Origin: Pelagibacterales bacterium SAG-MED28
Lineage (GTDB): Bacteria; Pseudomonadota; Alphaproteobacteria; Pelagibacterales; Pelagibacteraceae
Direction of reading: 5' to 3'
DNA: 64,000 bases
Assembly (NCBI GenBank): GCA_014653835.1
Contig: JACWDY010000001.1
Location: forward strand, 186,001-250,000
Under the pieces are notes generated by a model. That model was given only the letters and a program-made list of their open reading frames with translations, had not been told where the DNA came from and did not search any database. Each line of letters opens with the position of its first letter. Positions within the stretch are counted from its first letter, which is position 1. A program made the translations under genes and the position numbers. Positions 14,465 to 34,862 of this stretch are shown in pieces.

Positions 14465-14587
14465 ATGAAAACAATTTTTTTATTCTTTTTAACCATTTAT
14501 ATTGCATATTACCTTTTTCGTCCTGTGACAAAAAAAGAGATAAAGAAATTTAACGATCCAGATAACTGGTCAAATATGGGTTTTTAA
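14465..14587 (+). CDS. Small single-TM protein, 40 aa (MKTIFLFFLTIYIAYYLFRPVTKKEIKKFNDPDNWSNMGF)
   Basis: Manual translation; below the track length cutoff; divergent from msrB; TM segment plus charged tail. Confidence 0.4.
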   Translation: MKTIFLFFLTIYIAYYLFRPVTKKEIKKFNDPDNWSNMGF

Positions 14588-16924: not shown

Positions 16925-17893
16925 ATGGAATTATCAATCGATAAAGCTGAATTTGCTAAGACTTCACTTGAACAAATATCAGAAGCTTTAAAAAAAGGGT
17001 TAGTTCAAAACTATAAGTCAGTTAAAATATCTATCGAAAATTGTCCTGATCTAACAAAATGGGACTGTCCGGCTTCTGGCCTAAGTGGAAATCAAAAAAT
17101 TATTGATGTTGGAGGCGAACCTTATATGCACGATAAAAGATTTATAGGTGCTGAATTTGATTTTGAAGAGATTGCAAAAAGAATTGGATCTGAAAAATCT
17201 TATGCTTTAGGAGCAGGATCTGGTGCTATGTCATGTTTAGATGGACATTGTGGTGAATTAGTTATTAATGAAAATTTAATTAATAATGAGTCTAGATCAA
17301 TAATTGCTCAAGTAGACGAGCAAAATAATTGCAAAGCATCAAAATATTCAGCTCGCAAACATGGTGGTTTAGGAAATATTTACTACTCTGATGGAAAAAT
17401 TGGAAAAGTTATTAAGATTATAATTAAAGGAAGATCTGGTGAACAAGGTTCTCTACCTCAAGCCATGCGTAAAGCTTTGAGTGATAATCTTTCAATTGCA
17501 AATAACAATCATGTGGCCTTAGCAGGTATTTTTAGAATTTTAAAAGGTAAAATTAAATCTCATGTTCAACCAGACTACGATACTATTAAACATGAATATT
17601 ACGACCCAAAACAAATGAAATGTGTGAAAGATTTTTTACAGTTCTATGAACCTATTGGGCCTCATTTTCAATGCTACTCAATTCTTTGGACTGGTGATCC
17701 TACAGGAGGAAAACTGAATTTAAGAGAGTCAGGTGAACACACACATTTTCACTCCTATAAAGGAACCCAGGATGCTGGTCATTATCACTTCGATGTAACA
17801 CCTAATGATATTGAATATGAGTGTTATTTTAATATTGCCCCTGAAGTTCATAGGGTAAATAATATTTATAAAAAATTGAAAAGTACAAAATAG
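16925..17893 (+). CDS. DUF1907 / C11orf54 (PTD012)-like zinc ester hydrolase family protein
   Basis: NCPDLTKWDCPASGLSGNQKIIDVGGEPYM, LGAGSGA, and HTHFHSYKGTQDAGHYHFDVTPNDIEYECYF closely resemble human C11orf54. Confidence 0.82.
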   Translation: MELSIDKAEFAKTSLEQISEALKKGLVQNYKSVKISIENCPDLTKWDCPASGLSGNQKIIDVGGEPYMHDKRFIGAEFDFEEIAKRIGSEKSYALGAGSGAMSCLDGHCGELVINENLINNESRSIIAQVDEQNNCKASKYSARKHGGLGNIYYSDGKIGKVIKIIIKGRSGEQGSLPQAMRKALSDNLSIANNNHVALAGIFRILKGKIKSHVQPDYDTIKHEYYDPKQMKCVKDFLQFYEPIGPHFQCYSILWTGDPTGGKLNLRESGEHTHFHSYKGTQDAGHYHFDVTPNDIEYECYFNIAPEVHRVNNIYKKLKSTK

Positions 17894-17910
17894 TTTGTTT
17901 TAATATAAAT

Positions 17911-18723
17911 GTGAAAAATATTTATACTTGGGCAGCTAATCCTGCAAAAAGAACTGTCACTGTGGGTGATATAATAGAAGCTAAAGGAAAAAAAATTCTT
18001 ACTCAAGTAACTGCTAATAACTCATTAGAGGCAAAAGCAGCTGAAGAAGCTGGTTTTGATATGATAATAGGTAGTGCTTCAAACGTTAAGAAGGTTAGAG
18101 AGGGATCTAAATGTCTTTTTTATACTGCGGCACTTGAACTACATAATTATCCTACAGCCGAGGATGTGCTACGTGGTGCCTTCAAAGCTTTAGAAAACGG
18201 TGCTGATGCAGTTATGACTGCAAGAAGTATGGATATAGTTTCTATGCTCGCAAAAGAAGATGTTCCAGTTATGGGTCATTTAGGTCTGGTTCCTAGAAAA
18301 TCTACTTGGATTGGTGGATTAAGAGCTGTAGGCAAAACTGCTGATGAAGCATACGAACTATTTAAAAAATTTAAACGTTTAGAAGATGCTGGAGCTTTTT
18401 CAGCTGAATGTGAAGTTATTCCTGAAAATGTTATGGGCGAAATATCAAAAAGAACAAGTATTGTTACTGTATCTCTTGGATCTGGAAAAAAAGCTGATGT
18501 TATGTATTTATTCATGAATGATATATGTGGTGAACAAGAAAAGTCCCCTAGACATGCAAAGGCTTATACAAATTTAAAAAAGATGAAAGATGACATTGAA
18601 ATTGAAAGAGTCAAAGCACTAAAAGCATTTATCAAAGATAGTTTAGAGGGAAAATTTCCTGGACCTGAAAACTCAGTTAATGTAAACGAAGAAATTTTAG
18701 AAAATTTTAAAAAAAAACTTTAA
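17911..18723 (+). CDS. PanB-fold (ketopantoate hydroxymethyltransferase-like) protein, probably not canonical PanB; GTG start
   Basis: VMGHLGLVPRKS and AECEVIPE match PanB, but the usual GDS, ADLP and KIEGG metal-site motifs are changed. Confidence 0.75.
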   Translation: MKNIYTWAANPAKRTVTVGDIIEAKGKKILTQVTANNSLEAKAAEEAGFDMIIGSASNVKKVREGSKCLFYTAALELHNYPTAEDVLRGAFKALENGADAVMTARSMDIVSMLAKEDVPVMGHLGLVPRKSTWIGGLRAVGKTADEAYELFKKFKRLEDAGAFSAECEVIPENVMGEISKRTSIVTVSLGSGKKADVMYLFMNDICGEQEKSPRHAKAYTNLKKMKDDIEIERVKALKAFIKDSLEGKFPGPENSVNVNEEILENFKKKL

Positions 18724-19643
18724 TCTTTTTTAATTGGAATAGTTGGATGCCTAGTTGTAGATGTAACAATATTTACACCAAGCTTTGCCTCTCTTAATAT
18801 AATATATAATCCAGCTCCAATTATTAAAAGACTTCCAAAGTAGACATTAAGACCTGGAAGGTCTTGAAACACTAAGTATCCAATAATACCACCAGCAATG
18901 ATTTGGATATATTGGGCAGAGGCAAATATTGATGACGGTAAATGTCTAGCTGAATTTATAACAAAAATTATAGCTACTCCTCTAAATGTACCACCCATCA
19001 AGTTTACAAATAAATCATTAATTGGCATCGGTTTATAAAAATAAACAGCAACAATTCCAGCAAATAAAATCATTAATAATTTTCCATAGATAAGAAAAGA
19101 AAACAAACTTTCCTGTTGTCCGTATTTTCTAACTATTAAATAACTAGCTGCTGGCAGAAACGGCATTATGATAGCAAGTATTCCTATTTTACTAAACTCA
19201 TTACTAAAAGGATCAATAGCTATGATAGCTCCAATAAATCCAATTATAGTTGCCAAATACCTTCTCCAACTAACTTTTTCTTTTAAAAAAATAGCACCCC
19301 CAATTGTTAATAATAAAGGAATAGTAAAAATGATGCTGTAAAGTGTAGTAAGCGGTAAATAATAAGTTGAATAAACGAAACTACTCATAGCCAAAAACAT
19401 TGTTAGGGTTCTAAAAAAATGAACAGTGAAACTTGCCTTTTTTAATTTTTGCCAAGCATGTTTATATTGAGTATAAATTACTACAGTTATTAATGCTGCA
19501 AATGACGAAAACAAAACAATTTGAGTGGAGTGATATCTATTAATTAAATCTTTTGAGATTGTGTCCTGACATACAAATAAAAAGTAGCCTAACAAAGCTA
19601 ACACAAAATTTGTGTAGTTGACCCGCTTAGTTACGGATTGCAT
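18720..19643 (-). CDS. EamA/DMT-family transporter
   Basis: About 10 hydrophobic segments, EamA-like duplicated architecture (IFLKEKVSWRRYLATIIGFIGAIIAI). Confidence 0.85.
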   Translation of the reverse strand: MQSVTKRVNYTNFVLALLGYFLFVCQDTISKDLINRYHSTQIVLFSSFAALITVVIYTQYKHAWQKLKKASFTVHFFRTLTMFLAMSSFVYSTYYLPLTTLYSIIFTIPLLLTIGGAIFLKEKVSWRRYLATIIGFIGAIIAIDPFSNEFSKIGILAIIMPFLPAASYLIVRKYGQQESLFSFLIYGKLLMILFAGIVAVYFYKPMPINDLFVNLMGGTFRGVAIIFVINSARHLPSSIFASAQYIQIIAGGIIGYLVFQDLPGLNVYFGSLLIIGAGLYIILREAKLGVNIVTSTTRHPTIPIKKD

Positions 19644-19651
19644 TTAATAAA

Positions 19652-20632
19652 TTATATGACGTTTGGTAAATCTCTTTTTGAGTTTTTAAAAGTTGGTAAT
19701 GGATACTTATAAGTCCATTTTCTTGGAATACATTTATTTTTAGCCTCTTCCCACATCGCTATCCATTGTTTGTAATTATTAACTTTAATTTTTTTTCTAT
19801 TTTTACTTTTTACTACAAAACTTGGTAATGGATCCCTGCCAGAATGTTGTCCTGTTTTGTTGAATCTTAAATCCATACTTATTCTAAAATTTTTTGATTT
19901 ATTTGGAAGAGAGCAATGAATTAAATACCTGCTTAATAAAATAATATCACCAACATTTGCCTCTAAAGCAATAGTTTTTAAATCATCTATTTTTTCTTTA
20001 CCTTTAATTTCAACTTGACCTTTGCTGCCTGTATCATGATTTACTAAACCTAATTTATGACTTTCTTTAACAGCCATCATACATCCATTTTCTATTCTTG
20101 TTTTTGTAAAAGGTATCCAGCAAGTAACTAATTCAGTGCCCTTTTGACCTTTTTTGTTCATTACACCAGCATCTTGGTGCCATGGGGTTCTGCCAACTAA
20201 ACCATCATGTAAATTTTTTTTAGAAATTGCTTTTTCAGGTTGTTTAATTCTAGAATTTTGACAAGGATTAGAAGAAATTTCCTGTCCAAGTATTTTAGAA
20301 ACTTTTTCTAAAATTTTATTATTTTTAATTAGATTAAAGATGGATTGGCTTGCAAAAAAATCGCTGTCTACATTAACATTTTGTGGAAGTCTTATATTAA
20401 AATATTGATCCAATTCTGGAATATTCAATTTAACTAAATGTGAGTATTTCTTTTTAAAGCTTAGCCCTAATACTCTTTTTTTATCTTTTTTAGGAACGAA
20501 TCTATGAACTAGTCTGTTCATGATGAAAGCCATGTCGTTTAATATTGGTTCTAAGTCTAATTTATAATCCAGAACATTTCGAATTCTTACAAAACCGTTT
20601 TTCTCGAATTCTTTTCTAATATTTTGAGCCAT
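19652..20632 (-). CDS. Phytanoyl-CoA dioxygenase (PhyH) family Fe(II)/2OG oxygenase
   Basis: TPWHQDAG (HxD), distal H in YLIHCSLPNKSKNFRISMDLRF. Confidence 0.85.
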   Translation of the reverse strand: MAQNIRKEFEKNGFVRIRNVLDYKLDLEPILNDMAFIMNRLVHRFVPKKDKKRVLGLSFKKKYSHLVKLNIPELDQYFNIRLPQNVNVDSDFFASQSIFNLIKNNKILEKVSKILGQEISSNPCQNSRIKQPEKAISKKNLHDGLVGRTPWHQDAGVMNKKGQKGTELVTCWIPFTKTRIENGCMMAVKESHKLGLVNHDTGSKGQVEIKGKEKIDDLKTIALEANVGDIILLSRYLIHCSLPNKSKNFRISMDLRFNKTGQHSGRDPLPSFVVKSKNRKKIKVNNYKQWIAMWEEAKNKCIPRKWTYKYPLPTFKNSKRDLPNVI

Positions 20633-20672
20633 GGAATCTTAAGATAATTACCAAAATAATATCAAAACCAAA

Positions 20673-21470
20673 TTATACTGCAAGTGCTTTTCTCATCTCC
20701 TCATCATCCATTTTCTTACCAAGATAAGCCTCGATCACAGCATTGTCGTCTTTAACTTTCGATGGAGTTCCCTCAGCTATTTTTTGACCATGATCAAATA
20801 CTGTTACTGTATTACAAGTATCCATCACTACTTTAAGAATGTGCTCAATAATAATTAAAGTAAGACCGTACTTGTCTTTTAATTGCATAATAATCTTCAT
20901 GAGGTTATCCACGTTGACTGGTGACAATCCTGCTGCTGGTTCATCTAACATCAACAACTTTGGTTTCATAGCGATGGCTCTTGCTAATACTAATAATCTT
21001 CTCTGACCTCCAGAAAGTTCACTTGCATTTAGTTCAGCATAATCTGCTAAACCTACAAATGATAAAAGCTCCATCATTTCTTCTTTAATGGCTCTCTCTT
21101 GATCCCAAATTTTTTTTCTTCCTACCACCGCATCAATAAAACTATATGGAACTTTGGTATGATAACCAGCCATCACATTATCAATTACTGTCATGTCCTG
21201 ATAAAGTCTTAAAAGTTGAAAAGTTCTAGATAAACCATATCCAGCTATTTTATATGGCGGTGTAAAGGTAATATCATGCCCATCAAACTCAATGTAACTT
21301 CCTGGGTCGCTATCATATATTCCTGAGACTAAGTTAAAGAATGTGCTTTTTCCAGAACCATTCGGTCCAATGATGCCTCTTATTTCATTTTTTTTAAGTT
21401 CAAAATCTACTTTGTCCATAGCTTTTAAACCGCCAAAAGATTTTGTTAGTTGTTTAGTTTTTAAAATCAT
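20673..21470 (-). CDS. livG: HAAT-family ABC transporter ATP-binding protein LivG
   Basis: GPNGSGKST, LSGGQRRLLVLARA, LMLDEPAAGLS. Confidence 0.93.
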   Translation of the reverse strand: MILKTKQLTKSFGGLKAMDKVDFELKKNEIRGIIGPNGSGKSTFFNLVSGIYDSDPGSYIEFDGHDITFTPPYKIAGYGLSRTFQLLRLYQDMTVIDNVMAGYHTKVPYSFIDAVVGRKKIWDQERAIKEEMMELLSFVGLADYAELNASELSGGQRRLLVLARAIAMKPKLLMLDEPAAGLSPVNVDNLMKIIMQLKDKYGLTLIIIEHILKVVMDTCNTVTVFDHGQKIAEGTPSKVKDDNAVIEAYLGKKMDDEEMRKALAV

Positions 21471-22459
21471 TATGTTTTTTCTGTTCCTGTTTTCTTTTTA
21501 AATCTTTTTTCTAAAAAATATCTGTCAATAAAACCACCAATACCTTTTGGCATAAATAAAATAGTTAAAACTATAGTTAGACCAAATATTAACAATTGGT
21601 ATTTGTATAAAGGACGAGTTAAATCGTAAACAATTGTAATAATGACTGCTCCAATTATTCCTCCCCAGATATGTCCTAACCCTCCGAGCACAACCATAGC
21701 TAAAAAAGTTACCATCTCAATAACTGTATAGTTATTTGGATGGATATATCCTGGCGGCATATGGGCATATACAGCTCCCGCAGCACCAGCGAACATAGCA
21801 CTTAAAATAAATGCTAATATTTTATACTTCTTTACGTTTATACCGGCAGCAGCAGCACATATTGGATCCTCTCTTATAGACATAAATGCTCGACCAATTC
21901 CTGATCTTAAAATACTAAATGAAAAATAAACGGCAATAATCATTATAGTCATTGAAATAAAATAATATCTATCTGGTGAGTCAAAATTAAATCCCATTAA
22001 AGATGGAGTTGGGATATCTGAAATACCAAAAGTTGATCTAAAGAAATTTCCATTTTCAATAAATAATCTAATTGCCTCTCCTCCACCTAATGTTGCTAAG
22101 GCTAAATAAGGTCCCTCTAATCTAAAAGATGGTATGCCCATTGCTACACCAAAAAATGCAGTAACCACGATTGCTATAGGTAAAGTAACCCAAAAGCCTA
22201 ATCCCAAATAAAGAAATAATGTTCCAGCAGTATACGAACCAACTGCAAAAAGTCCGACGTGGCCTACTGTTACTTGACCGCAATATCCTTTAACAATATT
22301 CAATCCTGCTGCAACCACTATGTTAACAAAAATAAGTGTTGCTAAATGAGATTGATATACATCTGTAAAAATAACAGACGGCACAAGAGCGAGAATACAA
22401 AAAGCTATTATAAATGCGATAAAAGGATAATTTCTAATTAATATTTTAAATTTTCCCAT
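21470..22459 (-). CDS. livM: HAAT-family ABC transporter permease LivM
   Basis: GYCGQVTVGHVGLFAVGSYTAG; GPYLALATLGGGEAIRL. Confidence 0.93.
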   Translation of the reverse strand: MGKFKILIRNYPFIAFIIAFCILALVPSVIFTDVYQSHLATLIFVNIVVAAGLNIVKGYCGQVTVGHVGLFAVGSYTAGTLFLYLGLGFWVTLPIAIVVTAFFGVAMGIPSFRLEGPYLALATLGGGEAIRLFIENGNFFRSTFGISDIPTPSLMGFNFDSPDRYYFISMTIMIIAVYFSFSILRSGIGRAFMSIREDPICAAAAGINVKKYKILAFILSAMFAGAAGAVYAHMPPGYIHPNNYTVIEMVTFLAMVVLGGLGHIWGGIIGAVIITIVYDLTRPLYKYQLLIFGLTIVLTILFMPKGIGGFIDRYFLEKRFKKKTGTEKT

Positions 22460-23325
22460 TAAACAGCTTCTTTCATAAAATAATCTGAGTCATGACTTGA
22501 TGTTAGTAATTTTTTATTGGTTTTTTTAATTTTTGGAAGATAGCTTACATTCTTGTATTTCCAAACAACAGGTTTGCTTAGCGCATAACTTCCATAAATA
22601 AAAAATCTTTTTTTACCTTTTTCCTCTCTAAATAGTGTTACTCCGTGGTAGGAATTAGGAGTAGATTGAAAAAATATAACGCTTCCCCTTGAAGGTGTAA
22701 ATTCTTTAACTTTTGTTAATTCTGAAATACTGGGGAACCTTTTAAAACTTTTTCTTAACTTCATATCTGCTTTTTTTTTAAATATTGTTAATGATCCACC
22801 ATTCTTTTTAGGGATATCATTGAGGTAAATTAAAAAATTATAAAGTCTTGTCACATCATCTCTGTGTGGTCTTAATCTATAGCCTCCTCTGGAGACAGAA
22901 AAATCAATATCTAAATTAACATCTGGATTTTTATATGATTTTCCTAGCATTTTTACTAATTCTTTAGAATTCATTAATTTTTTATTCGTATATTTCTGAG
23001 CTAAGAATTTCTTTGGCAAGAAAGTGTTTGACCATCCATAAGTTTTAAACGTCTTTTTAAAACAATTTTCAACTTTTCTATAAAACGATTTACTATTAAA
23101 TTGATTATATAATTTTTTCGATAATTTTGATTTTTTTAGATAATTTTTGAAATTTTTTGAACCTTTATTAATTCTATTTCTTCCCCCTTGAATAAGATCA
23201 TCAAAAGATTTAGCTTTTTTAATTTCATTAATAAGTATTTCGCAATCTCTTGCTGATATAGCTTTTTTTCCAACCATCACTGGAAAATTGCTTTTAACTT
23301 TTGATAATTTATTAACAATGATCAT
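22459..23325 (-). CDS. 2OG-Fe(II) oxygenase superfamily protein
   Basis: RPHRDDVTRLYNFLIYLNDIPKKNGGSLTIF ... RGSVIFFQSTPNSYHGV...KRFFIYGSY (HxD...H...R). Confidence 0.75.
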   Translation of the reverse strand: MIIVNKLSKVKSNFPVMVGKKAISARDCEILINEIKKAKSFDDLIQGGRNRINKGSKNFKNYLKKSKLSKKLYNQFNSKSFYRKVENCFKKTFKTYGWSNTFLPKKFLAQKYTNKKLMNSKELVKMLGKSYKNPDVNLDIDFSVSRGGYRLRPHRDDVTRLYNFLIYLNDIPKKNGGSLTIFKKKADMKLRKSFKRFPSISELTKVKEFTPSRGSVIFFQSTPNSYHGVTLFREEKGKKRFFIYGSYALSKPVVWKYKNVSYLPKIKKTNKKLLTSSHDSDYFMKEAV

Positions 23326-23346
23326 GTTTGTAATTTCTTAATAAAA

Positions 23347-23376
23347 AATGAGCGGTAATTTTACTTACCGCTCATT
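23347..23376 (-). terminator. Rho-independent terminator/attenuator downstream of livK
   Basis: Perfect 12-bp stem AATGAGCGGTAA/TTACCGCTCATT, loop TTTTAC, followed on the minus strand by a TTTTTTA tract. Confidence 0.85.
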
Positions 23377-23389
23377 AATTTTTTATTTA

Positions 23390-24580
23390 TTATAAACCAG
23401 CGCTAGCGTTGAAAGTAACTGTACCTGCAACGGCTGTTTTAAAGTTCTTGCCACCTCTTGTGTACTCAATCATAACAGGAGTTCTGTTACCATCTCTACA
23501 CTCAGGTGATCCTGATTTACAGAAATTAATTGGACCAGATGCTAAACCTCTAAAGTCAGTTGTAGCAGCAATCGCGTCTCTTAAACTATTTCTATCAGCA
23601 GCTAGATCTCCAGAGAATTTAGTCTTTTTAAGAGCTATCTCTAAAATATCTAACAAGTCCATCATTTGAGAAAAATCATGTCCTGGTACAACACCGTATT
23701 TGTCTTTTACCATTTTCACGAATTTTTTAGCTATAGGTCTTTTGTCAGACGCAGCAAATGCAGCAGCATATGTTACACCTTTAGCAGCAGATCCAGCGTT
23801 TGTAGGGATCTCTACTTTTGAACCAATAGAAGCTGTTACTCTGTAAACAGATTTTGGAATTCCAACTTCATATGATTGAACTAGACCACGTACTGTCTCG
23901 TCCATCAGTGCTGAAATTACAAGCACCTCTGGATTAGTAGCTTTAGCTTTTGTTAAGTAACTTCTAAAGTCAGTCTCTTTCTCACCTGACTGAACCATAT
24001 AAGCAGGCTCAACATTATAGTTTTCTCTCATGTAATCAGCTAATGATAATGCAAAATCTTTACCAGCTGCATCAGGACCATAGATATAAGCTATTTTAGT
24101 ACCTTGGTTTTCTGCAGTGTATTTACCTTGTACGATTTTGTAAAATCTAGATGATACAGGCACTCTGAAAATGTATTCACTACCTTTTTTAGTAATGTCT
24201 GCATTTGTAGAGTGAGGTATGATTTGTGGAACTTTAGCTTTAGCAGATACTGGTACCATTGGTAATGTAACTGAACTACAGCTTGATCCAATTATAACGT
24301 GAACTTTATCTTGGTAAGCAAGTTTTGTTGCATTTGCTACACCTTTCTCAGATTTACATTCGTCATTATAAAGTGTTAAGTCAACTTTTTGACCATTAAT
24401 AGTGCCCTCTTTATTCCATAGAGCAACCGTATCAGTAATTAACTCTCCGTGTTTATATCCAACATCTGAAAGCATTCTGAATGAAACACCAATTTTGATT
24501 GTTTCTGCTTGTGCTAATGTCGTGATTACTAAACCTACGGAAAAGATAATTGTCGAAAAAACAAATTTAAGTTTGTTCAT
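23390..24580 (-). CDS. livK: HAAT-family ABC transporter substrate-binding protein
   Basis: Signal peptide; LYNDECKSEKGVANATKLAYQDKVHVIIGSSCSSVTLPMVPVS typical of Peripla_BP_6. Confidence 0.92.
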   Translation of the reverse strand: MNKLKFVFSTIIFSVGLVITTLAQAETIKIGVSFRMLSDVGYKHGELITDTVALWNKEGTINGQKVDLTLYNDECKSEKGVANATKLAYQDKVHVIIGSSCSSVTLPMVPVSAKAKVPQIIPHSTNADITKKGSEYIFRVPVSSRFYKIVQGKYTAENQGTKIAYIYGPDAAGKDFALSLADYMRENYNVEPAYMVQSGEKETDFRSYLTKAKATNPEVLVISALMDETVRGLVQSYEVGIPKSVYRVTASIGSKVEIPTNAGSAAKGVTYAAAFAASDKRPIAKKFVKMVKDKYGVVPGHDFSQMMDLLDILEIALKKTKFSGDLAADRNSLRDAIAATTDFRGLASGPINFCKSGSPECRDGNRTPVMIEYTRGGKNFKTAVAGTVTFNASAGL

Positions 24581-24683
24581 ATTTCCCCCATTTGTTATTT
24601 AATTGTTGCTTAGGCTATAAAAAAATAGTTATATTGTCAAAACGTTAAACAATTAATTTAATCAAAAATTTTTTGGGGGAAGA

Positions 24684-25403
24684 TTGTTAAAAGTAAATCA
24701 ACTAGTTTCTGGATATGGAACCGTCCAAATTTTAAATGGAGCAAACATGAAAGTTGATAAACAATCTGTAGTTGCATTGCTTGGTGGAAACGGAACAGGT
24801 AAATCAACAATTTTAAAAGCTGCTTCAGGATTAATTAGATCATGGAAAGGAACTATTGAATTCAACAACGAACAAATTCAAAATTTACCTCCACACGAAA
24901 TTGTAGCAAGAGGTTTAGTTCAAGTTACTCAAGGTAAAGATGTTTTTCCAGCAATGTCAGTCACAGAAAATTTAAGATTAGGGGGTTTTATCTTAAAAAC
25001 AAACCAACAATTAAAAGACAATTTAGAAAAGGTTTTTAATTATTTTCCAAGATTAAATGAAAGAAAAGATCAATTAGCCGCCACCCTTTCTGGAGGAGAG
25101 CTACAAATGTTGTGTATCGGCCGAGGCTTAATGTCAAATCCTAAAATGATAATGTTAGATGAACCTAGTGCTGCCTTAGCACCTCAAATTGTTTTAGATA
25201 TATTTAAGAATATAAATAGAATTAGAAAAGATGGACTAACGGTTTTAGTTGTGGAACAGAATGTTAGAATGGCTTTGCTTTTAGCTGATTATGGTTACGT
25301 TATTAAAGATGGCGTAATAAATGTTGAGGGAGAAAGTAAGAAACTTATGTATGACGAAAGCGTGAAAGAATCTTATTTAGGAGGTACTAAAGCAAATGTT
25401 TGA
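24684..25403 (+). CDS. livF: HAAT-family ABC transporter ATP-binding protein LivF (TTG start)
   Basis: GGNGTGKST, LSGGELQMLCIGRGL, VVEQNVRMAL; GGGGGA RBS before TTG. Confidence 0.92.
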   Translation: MLKVNQLVSGYGTVQILNGANMKVDKQSVVALLGGNGTGKSTILKAASGLIRSWKGTIEFNNEQIQNLPPHEIVARGLVQVTQGKDVFPAMSVTENLRLGGFILKTNQQLKDNLEKVFNYFPRLNERKDQLAATLSGGELQMLCIGRGLMSNPKMIMLDEPSAALAPQIVLDIFKNINRIRKDGLTVLVVEQNVRMALLLADYGYVIKDGVINVEGESKKLMYDESVKESYLGGTKANV

Positions 25404-25492
25404 AAAATTTAGGTTAGGAAAAAAGAGGAGAAAATATTATATTTACTATTTTTATATTAATTTATGTTGTTTATTGTCTAAATAGTCCTGAC

Positions 25493-26434: not shown

Positions 26435-27378
26435 TGATTAAAAAAGATACAAAAGTAGCTGTATTGGGCGCTGGAGCAATGGGTTGTTTGTTCGGAGGCT
26501 TATTAGCAGAAAAAGGTCTTGATGTTGTTCTGATAGATGTTTGGAAAGAACATGTTAAAGAAATTAATTCAAAAGGTTTAAAAATGATGGGTCATGGTGG
26601 TGACCGAATTATAAAAATTAAAGCTACAACTGAACCTCAAAAACTTAGTGAAGTAGATGCAATTATTGTAATGTGTAAAGCTACTGCATTAAAAACAGCA
26701 CTTACAAACGCAAAAAATATTATCGGATACAAGACAATGTTGATGTCTTTTCAAAACGGTATAGGGCACGAAGAAATAATGCAAGAAATTGCAGGAAAAG
26801 AAAAAGTTTTAGGCGGATCTACAACTCAAGCTGCGAGTGTGCAAGGTCCTGGGATAATTCAAAATCATGCAAGTTTACCCTCATGGATTGGTGAATACGA
26901 CGGAGGCGCAAGTGAGAGAGTAAAAGATTTAGCAGAAACCTTTACTGCTTATGGTTTGGAAACATTGACTGAGGAGAATATTAAAAAGAGAAAATGGATG
27001 AAATTATTTGCTCTTACAGCTATTGGACCGCTATCTGCTATCTTTGATTTGCACCACACAGATTTATACATCTCTAATAAAAATCAAGTAATGTCTAGAA
27101 AATTGGGCAAGGACATCATACTTGAGACAAGAAATGTTGCAAAGGCGGATGGAGTTGATGTTACAGAAGATGAGTGTTTAGATATGTTCAATCGAATTGT
27201 AGATTCTAGACAGACAAATAAATCTTCAATGGCATTTGATGTTTTGAAAAAAAGAGCTTCTGAAATTGATTTCATTAGTGGTGCTGTTTCTAGAATAGGT
27301 AAAAGGCACGGAGTGAAAACACCTTTAAATGATCTTATGTATAATATTATTAAAATTAAAGAGGGAATGTATACTTAA
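26434..27378 (+). CDS. ApbA/PanE-family (2-dehydropantoate 2-reductase-like) protein
   Basis: VAVLGAGAMGCLFGGLLAEKG; KRKWMKLFALTAIGPLSAIF. Confidence 0.85.
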   Translation: MIKKDTKVAVLGAGAMGCLFGGLLAEKGLDVVLIDVWKEHVKEINSKGLKMMGHGGDRIIKIKATTEPQKLSEVDAIIVMCKATALKTALTNAKNIIGYKTMLMSFQNGIGHEEIMQEIAGKEKVLGGSTTQAASVQGPGIIQNHASLPSWIGEYDGGASERVKDLAETFTAYGLETLTEENIKKRKWMKLFALTAIGPLSAIFDLHHTDLYISNKNQVMSRKLGKDIILETRNVAKADGVDVTEDECLDMFNRIVDSRQTNKSSMAFDVLKKRASEIDFISGAVSRIGKRHGVKTPLNDLMYNIIKIKEGMYT

Positions 27379-27384
27379 ATATAC

Positions 27385-29301
27385 ATGAGTAATGAAATCG
27401 TCTGGTCTCCTCCAGAAGAAATAGTAAAGAATTCAAAATTAACCAAATTTTTAAAATTTTGTAAGTTAAGCGACTATGATGAACTTGAAAAAAAAAGTTA
27501 TGCTGATCCTGGTTGGCTTTGGGACAATGTTATTAAATTTTCTGATCTAAAATTTTATCAATCCTATGAGAAAATCATGGATGAGAGTAAAGGAGCACCG
27601 TGGACAAAATGGTGTGTGGGTGGAAAAACTAACATTGTTCTTAATTGTATTGATCGGCATAAAGAAAAAAAATTCTTTAGCGAAACTTTTATATTTTCAG
27701 AAAAAGAGGATGGCACTAAAGGTTCAATTACCTATGAGGAATTTAATAAGCAAATCTCTAAAGTAGGTAATGCTCTTAAGATTAATGGTTTTCAAAAAGG
27801 TGATGTGATTGCACTCTATATGCCTCAATTTATAGAAACCTACATTGCTTATTTTGCGATTTTAAAAATCGGTTGTATCGTTCTTCCATTATTTTCTGGT
27901 TACGGTTCTAATGCTGTAGTTGAGAGATTAAATATTGCAAATGCAAAAGGTATTTTTACGGTAGAAAAGACTTTTAGAAAAGGAAAAGAAATAAAGATGT
28001 TTGATCTTATCAAAAATGATTTGGATCAAGTGAATTCTTTAAAAAAAGTTTTTTTATTAGGTGATGAAAAAGGTAAAAAAATTTTTAATTGGGAAAATTT
28101 TAAAAATGTTTCAGATAAATTAAAGACTGAAGAAATGGAGGCTGAAGACCCAGCGATAATTCATTTTACATCTGGGACTACTGGTAAACCTAAAGGGTGT
28201 GTGTATACACATATTGGTTTAGTGACTAAGATGTCTTTCGATGAGGGAGTTTTAGCAGATTTTAAACAAAGTGATGTTCATTTATGTATGGCGGATATGG
28301 GATGGATGGTTGGCTCTAAATCTGCAACTATCGCCTCGTCTCACGGTGCAAAAATGTTAATTGCAGAGGGTGTTCCAGATTTTCCTGACGAAATTAGATT
28401 TTGGAAATTAATAGAAAAATATAAAGTATCTTGGACTGAATTATCTCCAGCATTAATTAGAGCTCAAATGATTAAAGACAAAAATTTATTTAAAGATATA
28501 GATTTAAGTTCGCTTAGGATTATCTGTACTGGTGGTGAACCTTGGACTGAGAAACCTTGGAAATGGTTATTTGATTTTATTGGTAAATCAAAAGTTCCTA
28601 TAATGAATTCAGCAGGTGGGACTGAAGTATCTGGTTCTATACTTCATTGTTGTTTACATAGACCTTTTAAAGTTGGTTCTTTTAATGCGCCTATTCCCGG
28701 AATGAGTCCAGGAATTATTACTAATGATGGAAAAGAGGTAGAAGTAAATCAGATGGGTGAATTAATAATGAAAAAGTCATCCATTGGTTTAACTAAAAGT
28801 TTATGGGATGATGATGATCGTTATATAAATAATTATTGGATGGTAATAAAAAACTTTTGGGTACATGGAGATTTAGCTAGTAGAGATAAAGATGGCCATT
28901 GGTATCTTCATGGTCGGTCTGATGACACAATAAAAGTTTCAGGAAAAAGAATAGGTCCTTCTGAATTAGAGAGTGTTGTTGTTAAAAGTGGACAAGTTAA
29001 AGAAGTAGCTGCGGTAGGTATTCCTGATGAGAGTAAAGGATCTAAAATTATACTGTCCATAGTTCCTTTAGCTGGAAAAGACGGACTAAAAGCTGATTTT
29101 TTTGCTGATTTAATCATTAAAGATTTAGGGAAGTCGTTTAAGCCTGATAAAATAATATTTGTAAAAGATTTACCTAAAACTCGAAATATGAAAATAATGA
29201 GAAGGGTTATAAAATCTTGTTTAACAAATGAGGATCCTGGAGATGTTTCTACTTTACTTAATCCGGAATCCGTTGAGGAGATAAAACAGCATGCAATTTA
29301 A
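27385..29301 (+). CDS. AMP-dependent acyl-CoA synthetase/ligase (acetyl/acetoacetyl-CoA synthetase-like)
   Basis: IHFTSGTTGKPKGCVYTH; WYLHGRSDDTIKVSGKRIGPSELESVV. Confidence 0.88.
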   Translation: MSNEIVWSPPEEIVKNSKLTKFLKFCKLSDYDELEKKSYADPGWLWDNVIKFSDLKFYQSYEKIMDESKGAPWTKWCVGGKTNIVLNCIDRHKEKKFFSETFIFSEKEDGTKGSITYEEFNKQISKVGNALKINGFQKGDVIALYMPQFIETYIAYFAILKIGCIVLPLFSGYGSNAVVERLNIANAKGIFTVEKTFRKGKEIKMFDLIKNDLDQVNSLKKVFLLGDEKGKKIFNWENFKNVSDKLKTEEMEAEDPAIIHFTSGTTGKPKGCVYTHIGLVTKMSFDEGVLADFKQSDVHLCMADMGWMVGSKSATIASSHGAKMLIAEGVPDFPDEIRFWKLIEKYKVSWTELSPALIRAQMIKDKNLFKDIDLSSLRIICTGGEPWTEKPWKWLFDFIGKSKVPIMNSAGGTEVSGSILHCCLHRPFKVGSFNAPIPGMSPGIITNDGKEVEVNQMGELIMKKSSIGLTKSLWDDDDRYINNYWMVIKNFWVHGDLASRDKDGHWYLHGRSDDTIKVSGKRIGPSELESVVVKSGQVKEVAAVGIPDESKGSKIILSIVPLAGKDGLKADFFADLIIKDLGKSFKPDKIIFVKDLPKTRNMKIMRRVIKSCLTNEDPGDVSTLLNPESVEEIKQHAI

Positions 29302-30061
29302 AGATATTCTTTATGAAGTTAAAGATGATTATGCTCATGTAACAATTAATAGACCTAAAGTTCTCAATGCTTTTACTCCCGCCACACTTCAAGAATTGAA
29401 GACCGCTTTAGATACAGCCGAAAAAGACAAAGAAGTTGGTGTGATAATATTATCGGGTTCAGGCGATAGAGCTTTTTGCTCTGGTGGAGATATGAACTGG
29501 GAAAGTTCTAAGGAATTTCAAGATCATGAATACGAATTTCATATTCATCTAACAAAATGTAGTAAACCAATAATTGCTAAAGTCGATGGTTACGCTATTG
29601 GAGGAGGAAATCATATGGCCTATTTTTGTGATCTCACTATCGCTAGTGAAAATTCTATTTTTGGACAGAACGGCCCCAGAGTAGGATCTCCAGCTGGTGG
29701 CGCTATTGTAGCTCACTCAACAAATATTTTAGGTCACAAACGTGCTAGAGAAATGTGGATGACCTGTAAAAGATATTCAGCAAAAGAAATGCTGGATTGG
29801 GGTTTAATAAATTCTGTAGTTAAGAGAGAAAAATTAGACGACGAGGTAAAAAAATATGGTGATGAAATTTTAAAAGCTGCTCCTACATGTTTAAAAATAT
29901 TAAAAGCAAGTTTTAGAAAACAATTTGATGAAATACTAAAGATTACTCAAAAAAGTATGGTAGATGAGGTTTCTCCCAACTATTTCAAAACTGGAGAACA
30001 AGCTGAGGGTGCAAAAGCTTTTTTAGAAAAAAGAAAGCCTAATTTCAAAAAATTTCGTTAA
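29291..30061 (+). CDS. Enoyl-CoA hydratase/isomerase (crotonase) family
   Basis: TINRPKVLNAFTPATL, DRAFCSGGD, KVDGYAIGGGNHMAYFCDLTIAS. Confidence 0.88.
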   Translation: MQFKDILYEVKDDYAHVTINRPKVLNAFTPATLQELKTALDTAEKDKEVGVIILSGSGDRAFCSGGDMNWESSKEFQDHEYEFHIHLTKCSKPIIAKVDGYAIGGGNHMAYFCDLTIASENSIFGQNGPRVGSPAGGAIVAHSTNILGHKRAREMWMTCKRYSAKEMLDWGLINSVVKREKLDDEVKKYGDEILKAAPTCLKILKASFRKQFDEILKITQKSMVDEVSPNYFKTGEQAEGAKAFLEKRKPNFKKFR

Positions 30062-31149
30062 TGAAAATTAAATCAATCAAAGCAATAACTTTGAGCATGC
30101 CTTTCAGTCATGGTGGAAAAAAAGTAATTTTTCATGGCAAAGAGTGGAAAAGTTTAGAGTTTAACATTGTTAAAGTAGAAACTAATAAGGGTGTTACAGG
30201 TTGGGGTGAAGCATTTGGTTACACTAGTTGGAAGTCAGTGAAAATTGCGATTGAAGATATGGTTGCTCCCCTGCTCATTGGTAAAGATATGGCTGACATA
30301 CCAAAATTACTTTTAACTTTACAAAAATCTTTACATTTATTTGGGCGTTACGGAATTACTATGTTTGCAATTTCTGGAGTAGAAATAGCCTTGTGGGATG
30401 CTTTAGGTAAGGAAAAAAATAAACCTATTCATGAATTATTAGGTAAAAAAAATAATGATCTTTTTAAAGCTTATTCAAGTTTATTTAGATATGGAGACCC
30501 AAAGATTATAGAACAAAAATGTAAACAATCATTAGATGATGGCTATCAAGCAATTAAGTTACATGAAATTGAAAATGATTGTATTGAAGCTGGGAGAAAA
30601 GGAACAGGAAATCTTCCTTTAATGCTAGATACAAATTGTCCTTGGACTTACGAGGAAACACTTTCAAAAAAAGAATTTTTAAAAAAAATGAAATTAACTT
30701 GGCTTGAAGAACCAGTTTATCCTCCAGAAGATTACGAAACACTTGCTGAACTAAAGAAAGAACTAGAAATACCAATAGCCTGCGGTGAAAACGCATGCAC
30801 AGAGTTTGAATTTAAATCAATGATTAATCAAGAAGCAGTAAGCTATGTGCAGCCATCCGTTATAAAAGTTGGTGGTATATATGAGATGTTTAAAATTATA
30901 AAATTTGCTGAGACAAATAATATATCAGTGATGCCACATACTGCTTACTTTGGACCAGGTTTCTTAGCTACATTGCAGCTAGCTGCTTTGATGCAAAGAG
31001 ATACTTATATTGAACGATTTTATCTTGATATAGATCAAGAATTCTACCCAAACTTTAAAAAGACAATTAATGGAAAATTCAAACTTCCAACGGGTCCGGG
31101 TCTTGGAATTGATTTTGATCATAAAAAATTAAGTAAATATGAGATATAG
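30061..31149 (+). CDS. Enolase superfamily, mandelate racemase/muconate lactonizing enzyme-like
   Basis: GWGEAFG, YQAIKLHEI, LDTNCPW, WLEEPVYP, CGENA, MPHTAYFGPG. Confidence 0.85.
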   Translation: MKIKSIKAITLSMPFSHGGKKVIFHGKEWKSLEFNIVKVETNKGVTGWGEAFGYTSWKSVKIAIEDMVAPLLIGKDMADIPKLLLTLQKSLHLFGRYGITMFAISGVEIALWDALGKEKNKPIHELLGKKNNDLFKAYSSLFRYGDPKIIEQKCKQSLDDGYQAIKLHEIENDCIEAGRKGTGNLPLMLDTNCPWTYEETLSKKEFLKKMKLTWLEEPVYPPEDYETLAELKKELEIPIACGENACTEFEFKSMINQEAVSYVQPSVIKVGGIYEMFKIIKFAETNNISVMPHTAYFGPGFLATLQLAALMQRDTYIERFYLDIDQEFYPNFKKTINGKFKLPTGPGLGIDFDHKKLSKYEI

Positions 31150-31789
31150 ATCAGTTTTATTTGTTCCTGGTCATGAAGAAAAAAAAATCAGAAAAGCATA
31201 TACTCTAAATCCTGACTTAATTGTTATCGACTTAGAATCAACAGTGCCGGATCAAGAAAAAGATAATGCAAAAAAAATTATTCAAACTTGTAATGTAAAT
31301 AAAAAAAAAACATATATTAGAATAAATTCTAGTAATGATTTATCCTTTGTTTGTGATGAAAAATTTATCGGGATATTTTTACCTTTTACAGAAAGCAAAG
31401 AGCAATTATTGTCAATCGATAGTCAATTGAAAAAAATTGAAAAATTTAAAACAGATATTATCCCTATTATTGAAAGTCAAAAAGGTTTAAACAATCTTCA
31501 AGCAATTTGTAATTTTGATGAGAGAGTTAAAATTATTTCATTTGGTTCTCATGATTTAGCAAAATCAATTAATCTAAAAGTCTCTGAAAATGAAGATGAA
31601 ATTTTAAAATACAGAAAATTGATTACTAAATTTTCTAAAAAACCGATAGATACTTCTTATCTTAATTTTAAAGATATAGATGGTTTCAAGAAGTCTTGTA
31701 AGATAGTTAAAGATTTAGGTTTTGGTGGAAAAGCATGTATTCACCCAAATCAAATTGAAATATCAAACGAAATATTTAATGAAAAATAA
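31139..31789 (+). CDS. HpcH/HpaI aldolase / citrate lyase beta-like protein
   Basis: RSVLFVPGHEEKKIRKAYTLNPDLIVIDLEST; IIPIIES; KACIHPNQI. Confidence 0.82.
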   Translation: MRYRSVLFVPGHEEKKIRKAYTLNPDLIVIDLESTVPDQEKDNAKKIIQTCNVNKKKTYIRINSSNDLSFVCDEKFIGIFLPFTESKEQLLSIDSQLKKIEKFKTDIIPIIESQKGLNNLQAICNFDERVKIISFGSHDLAKSINLKVSENEDEILKYRKLITKFSKKPIDTSYLNFKDIDGFKKSCKIVKDLGFGGKACIHPNQIEISNEIFNEK

Positions 31790-32819
31790 AATTAAAATTG
31801 CTGTAGTTGGTATCGGCCTAATGGGTAATCAGCATTTAAAGGCTATTCACTTAAGTAAAAAGGCAAAACTTCATTCAATTGTTGACATTAATAAGAATTC
31901 GAAACTCCATGCCAAAAAATTTAAAGTACCATTTTATAAAACTTCTACAGACCTACTTAAAAACAAAAAACCTGATGCAGTCATTGTAGCTACCCCTAAT
32001 CAATTTCATGAAAAACATACTATTAGTTTTTTAAATGCTAAAATTCCAGTTCTCTTGGAAAAGCCTATTTCAAATAATATACAAAAAGCAAAAAAGATTA
32101 TAAATAGTGCAAAAAAAAATAAAACACATCTATTAATTGGTTATCACAGAAGACATAATTCAATCGTAACAAACGTAAAAAAGAAAATTGACTCTGGCAA
32201 ATTAGGTAAAATTGTAGCTGGTAATGTGATGTGCTGGTTATATAAAAATAAAGATTGGTATAAAGAAAAATGGAGAATTAGAAAAGGTGGCGGTCCATTA
32301 GGGATAAACTTAGTTCATGATATTGATTTAATTTGTTATTTGCTTGGTCCCATTCAATTTGTTCAAGCCTCTACATCTAATAAAATTAGAAAATACGACA
32401 TTGAAGATACGGCCATAGTAAATTTTACTTTTAAATCCGGTGCATTATGCACTCTAAGTGTTTCAGACACTATTGTGGGTCCTTGGAGCTATGAATTAAC
32501 AGCTGGTGAAAATCCTGCTTACCCAATAACCAATCAATCAGCATACTACATTGGTGGTACAAAGGGCTCTATTCAATTTCCAAATTTAAAACATTGGTTC
32601 AACAAAGGTGAGAGAAGTTGGTGGAAACCTATATTTCATAAAGATATGAATATTAGATTAAGTAGATTCACTTTAATAAATCAAATCAACCATTTATGTG
32701 ATGTCGTACTTAATAAAACTAAGCCAAAAGTAACGGGTGATGACGGCTTGCAATCTTTAAAAATATTTGATGCAATACTTAAAAGCACTAAATCAGGAAA
32801 AAAAATAAAAATTAATTAA
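31779..32819 (+). CDS. Gfo/Idh/MocA family oxidoreductase 1 (start trimmed to MKNKIKIAVVGIGLMG)
   Basis: Rossmann GIGLMG; VIVATPNQFHEKH; LLEKPIS; start overlaps preceding stop (ATGAAAAATAA). Confidence 0.85.
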   Translation: MKNKIKIAVVGIGLMGNQHLKAIHLSKKAKLHSIVDINKNSKLHAKKFKVPFYKTSTDLLKNKKPDAVIVATPNQFHEKHTISFLNAKIPVLLEKPISNNIQKAKKIINSAKKNKTHLLIGYHRRHNSIVTNVKKKIDSGKLGKIVAGNVMCWLYKNKDWYKEKWRIRKGGGPLGINLVHDIDLICYLLGPIQFVQASTSNKIRKYDIEDTAIVNFTFKSGALCTLSVSDTIVGPWSYELTAGENPAYPITNQSAYYIGGTKGSIQFPNLKHWFNKGERSWWKPIFHKDMNIRLSRFTLINQINHLCDVVLNKTKPKVTGDDGLQSLKIFDAILKSTKSGKKIKIN

Positions 32820-33950
32820 ATGAAAAAACTAAGATTGGGTATCGTTGGTGGGGGTCCTGGATCTTGGATAGGTCATGTTCATAGAATTGCATCACGTTTT
32901 GATGACAAATATGAAATAGTTGCAGGTGTATTTTCAAGAAATTTTAAAGTTAATCAATCATTTGGTGTAAGCATAGGTATCAATAAAAATAGATGCTACA
33001 AAGATTTTAAACAACTTTGCGATAAAGAAAAAAAAAGAAAAGATGGCATAGAAGTAATAGCAATTATGACACCTCCGGGAAGTCATCAAGTAATAGCAGA
33101 ACTTTTCATTAAAAATAACATACATGTCATATCAGATAAGCCCTTTGCAGGCACACTTCCGCAGGCTAAAAAACTTTACAAAACTATAATTCAAAATAAG
33201 AAAATAGTTTACGGTTTGACACATAATTATTCTGCTTACCCAATGGTAAGACATGCTAAAAAATTAATAGAAGATAAAAAACTGGGAAATGTCGAGTATA
33301 TAAATGTAGAATATGTTCAAGATTGGTCTAATGGTGTCAAAGTTACTGCTAAAAATGCTAAAAAAGTTTTTAGATGGAAATTAGATAAAAAAATTGCAGG
33401 TGTATCAACAGTATTAAATGAAATAGGTTCTCATGCTTATCATCTTTGCAACTATATAACTGGCCTCGAAGGTAAATCTTTATTTGCAGATATAAAAAAG
33501 TATTCTAAAAAAATTAAATTTGATACTAATGCACAGGTTTTCATAAATTATGAAAATGGTGCCAAAGGATTATTTTGGGCTTCAACTACTGCGAAAGGTG
33601 GAATTTATGGTCTTAGAATTAGAGTGTTTGGATCAAAAGGAAGCCTCGAGTGGGTTCAGAATGATCCGAATTATTTAAAATATAGCAGCGAAACCGGCGC
33701 AACAAAAATTTTAGAAAGAGGTTTTAATGAAAGTAATTTTTCTAAATCTTTTTCAAGGATTAAATATGGTCACCCTGAAGGGTATTTAAGTGCTTTTTCT
33801 AATCTATATAAAGAAATTGCATTAAAGATAAATCTAAAGAAATCTAAGAAAAGATTTTATTTTCCAACTGCCTATGAAGGTCTGCTTACTGCAAAGTTTA
33901 TTGATGGTTGTGTAAAATCCTCTTCAAAAAAAAAATGGGTACAATTTTAA
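32820..33950 (+). CDS. Gfo/Idh/MocA family oxidoreductase 2
   Basis: RLGIVGGGPGSWIGHVHRIA; ISDKPFAGTL; NEIGSHAYHL. Confidence 0.85.
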   Translation: MKKLRLGIVGGGPGSWIGHVHRIASRFDDKYEIVAGVFSRNFKVNQSFGVSIGINKNRCYKDFKQLCDKEKKRKDGIEVIAIMTPPGSHQVIAELFIKNNIHVISDKPFAGTLPQAKKLYKTIIQNKKIVYGLTHNYSAYPMVRHAKKLIEDKKLGNVEYINVEYVQDWSNGVKVTAKNAKKVFRWKLDKKIAGVSTVLNEIGSHAYHLCNYITGLEGKSLFADIKKYSKKIKFDTNAQVFINYENGAKGLFWASTTAKGGIYGLRIRVFGSKGSLEWVQNDPNYLKYSSETGATKILERGFNESNFSKSFSRIKYGHPEGYLSAFSNLYKEIALKINLKKSKKRFYFPTAYEGLLTAKFIDGCVKSSSKKKWVQF

Positions 33951-34862
33951 ATGATTAAATCCTGTGTAATAGGATTATCAAAAATTGGCCAAATTCATTG
34001 TAATAATTTAAAAAAATTAAAAAATACATCTTTAAATTTTGTATACGATAAAAATTTAATCTTAAGAAAAAAAACTGCAAAAAGATTTAAATGTAAGACT
34101 TCAAATAGTTTTGAAGAAATTTTGAGAAATAAAGAAATAAAATTATTTATTATAGCTTCCCCAACTACTACTCATGAATATTATTTAAATAAGCTAATAC
34201 AGTACAAGAAAATGATTTATTGTGAAAAGCCTATATCTCTTAATTCATCAAAACTAAATAGTTTTGTAAAAAAAATTAAAACAAATAAGATTAAAATATG
34301 TATTGGGTTAAATAGAAGATTTTCTGATGCTTATATTAAAATGAAAAAATTAATTAAAAATAAGAAAGTCAAAATTATTCAGATTATATCAAGATCATCA
34401 AATGCTAATGTTCATCAATCCGTTAGAAATGGAGGTCTTTTTATGGATAAAGGATTTCACTTTTTTGACTTGGCTTGTTGGTTTGCTAACTCATTTCCAA
34501 ATAAAATAATCACAATTGCTAATCCCTTGAGTACTAAAGAATTTCTCAAAAATAATGACTATTCAGATGCAGTGATAAATATGAAATTTAAAAATAAAGT
34601 AATAGTAGAATATATATTCAGTAGAAATTGTAGACTTGGTCATGAGGAAAGGATTAAATTATTTGGAAATGGATTTAAGATTGACTCTAATAAGTTTTTT
34701 AAGAAATCAATAATTTATAAGAATTTTGATATAAAACATAAAGAGAGTTATTTTAGATGTTTAAAAAAATTCGTTCATTTAAGTAAAAATTTATTATTGA
34801 ATGAAGGAATTCAAACTCAAAAAATTTGTGATAAAGTATTAAAGTCTGCTAAACTTAATTAG
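33951..34862 (+). CDS. Gfo/Idh/MocA family oxidoreductase 3 (divergent)
   Basis: VIGLSKIGQIHCNNL; IIASPTTTHEYYL; YCEKPISL; DKGFHFFDLACWF. Confidence 0.78.
   Translation: MIKSCVIGLSKIGQIHCNNLKKLKNTSLNFVYDKNLILRKKTAKRFKCKTSNSFEEILRNKEIKLFIIASPTTTHEYYLNKLIQYKKMIYCEKPISLNSSKLNSFVKKIKTNKIKICIGLNRRFSDAYIKMKKLIKNKKVKIIQIISRSSNANVHQSVRNGGLFMDKGFHFFDLACWFANSFPNKIITIANPLSTKEFLKNNDYSDAVINMKFKNKVIVEYIFSRNCRLGHEERIKLFGNGFKIDSNKFFKKSIIYKNFDIKHKESYFRCLKKFVHLSKNLLLNEGIQTQKICDKVLKSAKLN

Follow-up and report, generated by a model that had tools for sequence, protein, structure and literature searches.

The animal protein C11orf54 (PTD012), of the glucuronate-xylulose pathway, carries the domain DUF1907 (PF08925). 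Galperin's commentary on Malatesta et al. 2025 (PMC12435205) describes it as the decarboxylase of 3-dehydro-L-gulonate (beta-keto-L-gulonate), with a fold that resembles acetolactate decarboxylase, and reports that in rotifers the C11orf54 domain is fused to a 3HCDH 3-hydroxyacid dehydrogenase domain. In rhizobia, mocDEF clusters have been tied to the catabolism of inositol derivatives (PMC3538637, PMC10107442). A gene cluster that shares parts with both systems occurs in the window, by which we mean the whole stretch of 64,000 nucleotides analysed here (G000:C1:186001-250000), taken from a SAR11 genome of 0.99 Mb; positions given below are window positions. The cluster spans 14570-34862, with about 20 genes in tight operons, and encodes among others a DUF1907 protein, a PanE-like dehydrogenase, a PanB-like protein, two Fe(II)/2-oxoglutarate (2OG) oxygenases and an importer of the hydrophobic amino acid transporter (HAAT) type.

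The reading that we tentatively prefer is that this cluster lets the cell take up an inositol-family compound and degrade it oxidatively, the best candidate being a (methylated) cyclitol or a cyclitol-derived sugar acid. At its core would be the decarboxylation of a beta-keto acid, and the product would feed a non-canonical inositol pathway. In the predicted scheme, of which the substrate, the order and direction of the steps and every catalytic activity are putative, the HAAT importer would bring in a carboxylate without an alpha-amine, and the two oxygenases together with the PanB-like enzyme would oxidise or remove a methyl or hydroxymethyl group. Hydroxyls would be oxidised by dehydrogenases of the IolG/MocA type and by short-chain dehydrogenases (SDRs), the PanE-like dehydrogenase would form an alpha-hydroxy-beta-keto acid, and the DUF1907 protein would decarboxylate it. 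The ketose or inosose so produced would enter the IolE/IolD inositol pathway of the cell, and a ligase, a crotonase and a CitE-like lyase would turn the remaining acid into acetyl-CoA. The enzymes are of known kinds in a new combination, with a specificity that has not been described. A narrower version of the scheme, unlikely in all its detail, is an undescribed route by which SAR11 would demethylate and decarboxylate marine methyl-cyclitols or cyclitol acids, where the 2OG oxygenases and a new PanB-derived family take the methyl or hydroxymethyl carbon and the C11orf54-type decarboxylase returns the skeleton to a non-phosphorylating inositol pathway.

Consider first the DUF1907 protein. It matches PF08925 with 199 bits (cutoff 25), covers positions 1-285 of the 285 in the profile, and can be aligned with human PTD012/C11orf54 (1xcr) from end to end. 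Four SAR11 copies are 36-40% identical to the human protein, and the three zinc-ligand histidines (EHTHF..GHYH) are invariant in the SAR11 copies, in 1xcr and in two loci from outside SAR11, which come from metagenome-assembled genomes (MAGs) of Hyphomicrobiales (L075) and Rhodobacteraceae (L123). In both of these loci the PanE gene stands directly before DUF1907, and the proteins are 40-44% identical to those of the window. When GTDB was scanned with an alignment of DUF1907, 265 loci emerged, and 80 of them were retained for neighbourhood analysis. In 45 loci DUF1907 is well flanked, with over 6.5 kb to either side, and 43 of these 45 have a PanE-like gene. The two genes lie in different blocks of the window, and still they are linked in all three architectures described below (types A, B and C). 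Since the pair is kept in 43 of the 45 loci and in the two loci from outside SAR11, it is the oldest element of the cluster, and the natural reading is that the two enzymes catalyse consecutive steps. The rotifer fusion of DUF1907 with a dehydrogenase parallels this bacterial pairing. The likeness to the animal system thus extends to the partner, a NAD-dependent hydroxyacid dehydrogenase, but this is PanE-like in SAR11 instead of CRYL1 or 3HCDH; furthermore, the SAR11 copy belongs to a bacterial catabolic operon with an importer, and a substrate is known for the animal enzyme only. The PanE-like protein scores 242.5 bits against TIGR00745 (cutoff 141.35), and keeps the motifs WxKL, SSM and EID, with the Lys, Ser and Glu of PanE. 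Both the gulonate and the acetolactate substrate contain a carboxylated carbinol adjoining a ketone, and by analogy we infer that the bacterial DUF1907 protein would decarboxylate an alpha-hydroxy-beta-keto acid made by the PanE-like dehydrogenase.

In genome samples at class level (288) and phylum level (299), the only DUF1907 match was the window's own genome, from which it follows that the family is rare outside SAR11; a tblastn search against plasmids gave no match. In the Rhodobacteraceae MAG, the PanE-DUF1907 pair is preceded by an 837-aa FAD/GcvT-domain protein of the folate-dependent demethylase type (L123:6252-10990).

The link to inositol is seen most directly in the type B loci of Pelagibacter, where the core is embedded in an inositol locus with a true IolD (802 bits, cutoff 715) and a true IolE (409 bits, cutoff 290). 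Among 147 genomes of the order, iolD occurs in 48, and in 19 of the 21 that carry DUF1907; in the two other carriers the contig ends within the neighbouring aldehyde dehydrogenase gene and so cuts the cluster off. All 13 further carriers, both non-SAR11 genomes included, have iolD, so that the total is 32 of the 34 DUF1907 genomes tested. Within genus g4, the frequency of iolD is 15/17 for carriers versus 24/58 (Fisher p = 7e-4, group sizes counted by hand). A homologue of the cluster gene Gfo2 (74%) lies inside the iol locus of the sibling genome G712 (L159), and the window genome has an IolD of its own on the same contig (795 bits, cutoff 715; G000:C1:92036-93856, in L048). The iol locus of this genome (L048:3012-14151, at about 85-96 kb of G000:C1), like L031-L037, L050, L051 and L058, contains IolD, IolE and IolG-like genes.

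The cell's inositol pathway is like the canonical myo-inositol iol pathway in having IolD, IolE and IolG-like proteins, in Pelagibacter within the same locus, and unlike it in other respects. IolB had no match in 16 SAR11 genomes and IolC none above cutoff in 16/16 (best 108 bits versus 300), an aldehyde dehydrogenase and usually an HpaI-type aldolase lie beside IolD, and the PanE-like, DUF1907, PanB-like and oxygenase genes come in addition. This suggests that the lower inositol pathway of SAR11 is oxidative and non-phosphorylating. No description of inositol catabolism or methyl-cyclitol degradation in SAR11 was found in the literature, nor any pathway that matches the cluster, as had been surmised in a first-pass annotation of the window made from its letters alone. 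That annotation had also proposed a single uptake-and-degradation unit for an acid-type substrate, and it lacked the two strongest clues, i.e., the membership of DUF1907 in a family of beta-keto-acid decarboxylases (PMC12435205) and the position of the core in, or its co-occurrence with, the iol pathway.

The same evidence bears on an alternative that is doubtful, and yet more probable than the others set out below, namely that the cluster acts on an open-chain sugar acid, a hexonate or hexuronate, and not on a cyclitol. The PanE-like and DUF1907 enzymes would then carry out a gulonate-to-pentulose step as in animals, the enolase-superfamily enzyme would dehydrate a sugar acid, and the iol link would reflect shared ecology only. 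Beta-keto-L-gulonate (PMC12435205) is the only substrate known to us for which decarboxylation by a DUF1907 protein has been demonstrated. The solved structures nearest to the enolase-superfamily enzyme are 5olc, 3bjs and 5xd7 (galactonate dehydratase, 3bjs, and 3,6-anhydro-L-galactonate cycloisomerase) with nearly equal scores, which also favours a sugar acid, as does the combination of a tripartite ATP-independent periplasmic (TRAP) system in place of the HAAT importer with an epimerase-type dehydrogenase in the variant loci L077 and L142. The physical position of the core inside the iol locus in Pelagibacter and the presence of iolD in nearly all carriers argue for the cyclitol instead; a pentulose kinase and a glucuronate reductase are not recognisable in the cassette, and the PanB-like and oxygenase genes would be left unexplained.

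Consider next whether the genes form a unit. The cluster occurs in identical order in three other genomes of the genus (G130, G041 and G121) at 54-98% identity, except that no orthologue of SDR2 was found in these three and that G041 is also without Gfo3. G041 and G121 carry it between gltX and lpxB, which is also its place in the window, where the core genes on the left flank are gltX (9623-11011) and msrB (13984-14442) and lpxB (34866-36011) follows on the right; in G130 (L026) it lies at another chromosomal site, adjoining aminotransferase-like and UvrB-like genes (the names of the flanking genes are read from translations). In G002, G097, G109 and G111 the site is empty, with the order msrB, one histone-deacetylase-family gene, lpxB, and G073 has a single ORF between gltX and lpxB. 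From the shared order, the other site in G130 and the empty sibling sites it follows that the cassette is gained or lost as a block and that its genes are not chance neighbours. The cluster is a mobile, co-inherited cassette, and the listed genes thus do not occur independently of each other in relatives. The histone-deacetylase-family gene of the empty site (309 aa; L060, L062-L064, L069) is missing from that place in the window.

The genes, with families assigned from hidden Markov model (HMM) matches (Pfam, and NCBIfam at equivalog cutoffs), are the following.

14570..15325, minus strand: SDR1, short-chain dehydrogenase (adh_short); in type A loci, and in part of those of type C, it is kept next to FAH/DUF1907
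15322..16086, minus strand: SDR2, 3-hydroxybutyrate-dehydrogenase-like SDR, accessory and variable (NF009093, 282.8 bits > 258)
16083..16862, minus strand: FAH/MhpD-like hydratase or decarboxylase (weak HpaH/MhpD matches below cutoff); adjoins DUF1907 in types A and C
16925..17893, plus strand: DUF1907, predicted beta-keto-acid decarboxylase of the C11orf54 family, core (PF08925; Zn ligands kept)
17911..18723, plus strand: PanB-like TIM-barrel protein, not canonical PanB (PF02548, 127 bits; without GDSLG metal loop)
18720..19643, minus strand: DMT/EamA transporter (PF00892)
19652..20632, minus strand: PhyH-family Fe(II)/2OG oxygenase (PF05721, 71.7 bits; HxD and distal His in sequence)
20673..21470, minus strand: LivG-like ATPase of the HAAT importer (HMM match)
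21470..22459, minus strand: LivM-like permease (PF02653)
22459..23325, minus strand: 2OG-Fe(II) oxygenase between LivM and the binding protein (PF13640, 2OG-FeII_Oxy_3; HRD and distal His conserved)
23390..24580, minus strand: HAAT substrate-binding protein (Peripla_BP_6, 122.7 bits; LivJ/LivK alignment)
24684..25403, plus strand: LivF-like ATPase (HMM match)
25493..26434, plus strand: LivH-like permease, gene 1 of the plus-strand operon (HMM match)
26434..27378, plus strand: PanE-like NAD(P) dehydrogenase, core partner of DUF1907 (ApbA/PanE; TIGR00745)
27385..29301, plus strand: acetyl-CoA-synthetase-like acyl-CoA ligase (PF00501, AMP-binding; the NCBIfam equivalogs shown all below cutoff)
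29291..30061, plus strand: crotonase of the MenB/BadI-like branch (ECH_1; MenB 257 bits, BadI 245, both below cutoff)
30061..31149, plus strand: enolase-superfamily sugar-acid dehydratase-like enzyme (MR_MLE)
31139..31789, plus strand: CitE/RipC-like C-C lyase (PF03328, HpcH_HpaI; RipC 103 bits, below cutoff)
31779..32819, plus strand: Gfo1, IolG/MocA-like oxidoreductase (GFO_IDH_MocA; IolG 146.6 bits, below cutoff 355)
32820..33950, plus strand: Gfo2, Gfo/Idh/MocA oxidoreductase (GFO_IDH_MocA)
33951..34862, plus strand: Gfo3, IolG-like oxidoreductase (GFO_IDH_MocA; IolG 166.5 bits, below cutoff)

All genes named in the first-pass annotation are present at its positions, with their families confirmed by HMM, and the tight plus-strand run that it described is borne out: from LivH to Gfo3 (25493-34862) the junctions lie between -11 and +6 bp, consistent with a single operon. 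The most likely start of Gfo1 is the ATG at 31779, which is favoured over the TTG at 31722 since its relatives have 346 aa. The proposed boundaries, 16925-34862, were too narrow, since SDR1 and the FAH/MhpD-like gene accompany the cluster in relatives; with SDR2, they extend the unit (14570-16862) so that it starts at 14570. SDR2 is lacking in several relatives, and in G037 it occupies the cluster site with Gfo2 alone.

The idea of one uptake-and-degradation unit stands in so far as the genes travel together in the same order in three genomes, but the cluster is modular and not indivisible, with at least three exchangeable modules. Type A among the examined DUF1907 loci is the type of the window. 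Type B (genus g4, Pelagibacter-like) has PhyH, 2OG, PanE, DUF1907, a 138-aa orphan and the PanB-like gene, followed by HpaI-type aldolase, aldehyde dehydrogenase, IolD and IolG-like genes, and it is without the HAAT/ligase block. The compact type C consists of the genes for the substrate-binding protein (SBP), LivF, LivH, PanE, ligase, crotonase, enolase, CitE, Gfo1, FAH and DUF1907, without oxygenases. The block of HAAT, ligase, crotonase, enolase and CitE genes and the block of oxygenase and PanB-like genes are thus each found without the other. It could be, although this is improbable, that the window holds two or more unrelated accessory modules (HAAT-ligase-crotonase-enolase-CitE; oxygenase-PanB-DUF1907) stacked in a variable region, and not one pathway. 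Such stacking would agree with the separability seen in types B and C and with Gfo2 and SDR2 standing without the rest in G037. It is hard to combine with the linkage of PanE and DUF1907 across all architectures, with a PanE gene within the ligase operon and a 2OG oxygenase gene within the importer operon, and with the whole set being intact at the other site in G130.

In Pelagibacter and G130 the orphan gene (128-138 aa; L031:8127-8540, L032:10192-10608, L026:4583-4969) separates DUF1907 from the PanB-like gene; it is missing from the window. It matches no Pfam family, nor does the L031 copy match any NCBIfam model. The variant loci L077:341-11772 and L142, with the TRAP system, also have an M24 peptidase/creatinase-like gene, and the epimerase-type dehydrogenase is present where PanE was not found. 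Outside the genus, the acyl-CoA ligase query found only paralogues, at about 35% identity.

The PanB-like protein had been noted as having a PanB fold, and so it has (PF02548), but the metal site of PanB is lost. Against the PanB equivalog TIGR00222 it scores 94.2 bits, below the cutoff of 207.55. In all 12 aligned members of the subfamily the GDSLG loop with its metal-binding Asp, the second Asp and the catalytic Lys are missing or replaced in comparison with E. coli PanB; the Pfam and PDB alignments likewise begin only after the metal loop. What it shares with ketopantoate hydroxymethyltransferase PanB is the Pfam fold and the GHLGLxP and Glu motifs. On account of the equivalog score and the missing residues, its assignment as canonical PanB was rejected. 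An alternative pantothenate (vitamin B5) pathway from the PanB-like and PanE-like enzymes, which the annotated folds might suggest, is rejected with it, since the PanB metal and lysine residues are gone, most genomes of the order, G000 among them, have a separate PanB homologue (~30% identity), and neither panC nor panD was recognised among the cluster genes. The structures predicted by AlphaFold, with a mean pLDDT of 35.7 for the PanB-like protein and 40.1 for the 2OG protein, were not used.

Relatives of the PanB-like protein on rhizobial and roseobacter plasmids (39-57% identical) occur together with a desaturase-fold hydroxylase or its ferredoxin/reductase genes in 11/11 regions viewed; in one of these, L045, only a MocE-type ferredoxin and reductase are annotated, in an incomplete gene table. 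They lie in clusters of the MocDEF type. The cassette resembles rhizopine catabolism (mocDEF, mocCABR) and the FixV-linked mocDEF clusters of rhizobia in its PanB-like homologue, its MocA/IolG-type oxidoreductases, an oxygenase and the inositol link, but differs in that its oxygenases are of the Fe(II)/2OG type and that DUF1907 is absent from the rhizobial clusters viewed; none of the cluster genes belongs to a MocDEF set (desaturase-fold oxygenase, Rieske ferredoxin and reductase). In SAR11 the Fe(II)/2OG oxygenases may take the role of the hydroxylase beside the PanB-like enzyme, and two more SAR11 loci, L054 and L056, have the PanB-like gene next to a PhyH oxygenase. In L056 this is a second PanB-like copy, and a GMC-type oxidoreductase and a Baeyer-Villiger-type monooxygenase are grouped with the two genes (L056:7896-12820). 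The 'panB' genes that neighbour desaturase-fold hydroxylases in rhizobia and roseobacters (L041-L047, L160-L163) form a separate family, whose five aligned members lack the PanB metal loop, and misannotation is likely widespread.

Oxygenases, a hydroxymethyl-type fold and enzymes for cyclohexane rings would, by chemical logic, also fit a mycosporine or gadusol-type compound, i.e., a methoxylated cyclohexenone with a hydroxymethyl group, which the oxygenases would demethylate, from which the PanB-like enzyme would remove the hydroxymethyl group, and whose ring would be opened by IolD-type chemistry. This is very improbable: the PanB-like relatives with hydroxylases occur in legume symbionts, and no direct link to such compounds was found.

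We return to the preferred cyclitol reading and to the observations that weigh against it. The catalytic residues of the PanE-like protein, of ketopantoate-reductase type, fit oxidation at C2 better than at C3. Type C is without both oxygenases and often without the PanB-like gene, so that the demethylation part is not essential to the unit. Some PanB-like relatives sit with betaine or amino-acid genes and not with inositol genes, and the common denominator may therefore be oxidative demethylation and its C1 product. The genome's own iol locus lies ~92 kb left of the window start and is not adjacent to the cluster. Finally, iolD is common in the clade, so that part of its co-occurrence with DUF1907 is shared ancestry; this inflates the counts, but the embedding of the core in an iol locus is direct.

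For the importer, alignment of the SBP with E. coli LivJ/LivK shows that Ser79 and Thr102 are kept, while Tyr150, Tyr202 and Glu226 are replaced by Ala, Leu and Lys. The former two we take to be on the carboxylate side and the latter three to be the contacts of the alpha-amine. These residues favour a ligand that is a carboxylate and not an alpha-amino acid, which together with the enzyme families supports the acid-type substrate proposed earlier. Uptake of Leu, Ile or Val is disfavoured since the amine contacts are replaced, and a binding protein specific for these three is so far not what the alignment indicates.

The enolase-superfamily enzyme has a KxH motif, and in the cassette versions the Asp of the dyad is replaced by Ser; among NCBIfam equivalogs for sugar-acid dehydratases none is reached (best 173.7 bits versus 650). 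The ligase, crotonase and lyase suggest, from their families, formation of an acyl-CoA and its cleavage to acetyl-CoA and a keto acid. This part is like itaconate degradation by RipABC in having CoA activation, a hydratase-type step and a CitE-type lyase (best match RipC), and unlike it in that the ligase is AMP-forming instead of a CoA-transferase and the lyase is well below the RipC cutoff. Among these enzymes, none reaches the cutoff of a characterised family.

Few cells on Earth are as abundant as those of SAR11, and their genomes are small. From this follows that an optional catabolic cassette of 20 kb marks a substrate that is worth its cost. If the cyclitol reading is true, it would assign a function in bacteria to a family of proteins reported in 2025 to have decarboxylase activity, and the 'panB' genes beside hydroxylases would be a different enzyme family. 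It would also point to a pool of dissolved marine carbon, cyclitols or their acids, and to an unusual inositol route.

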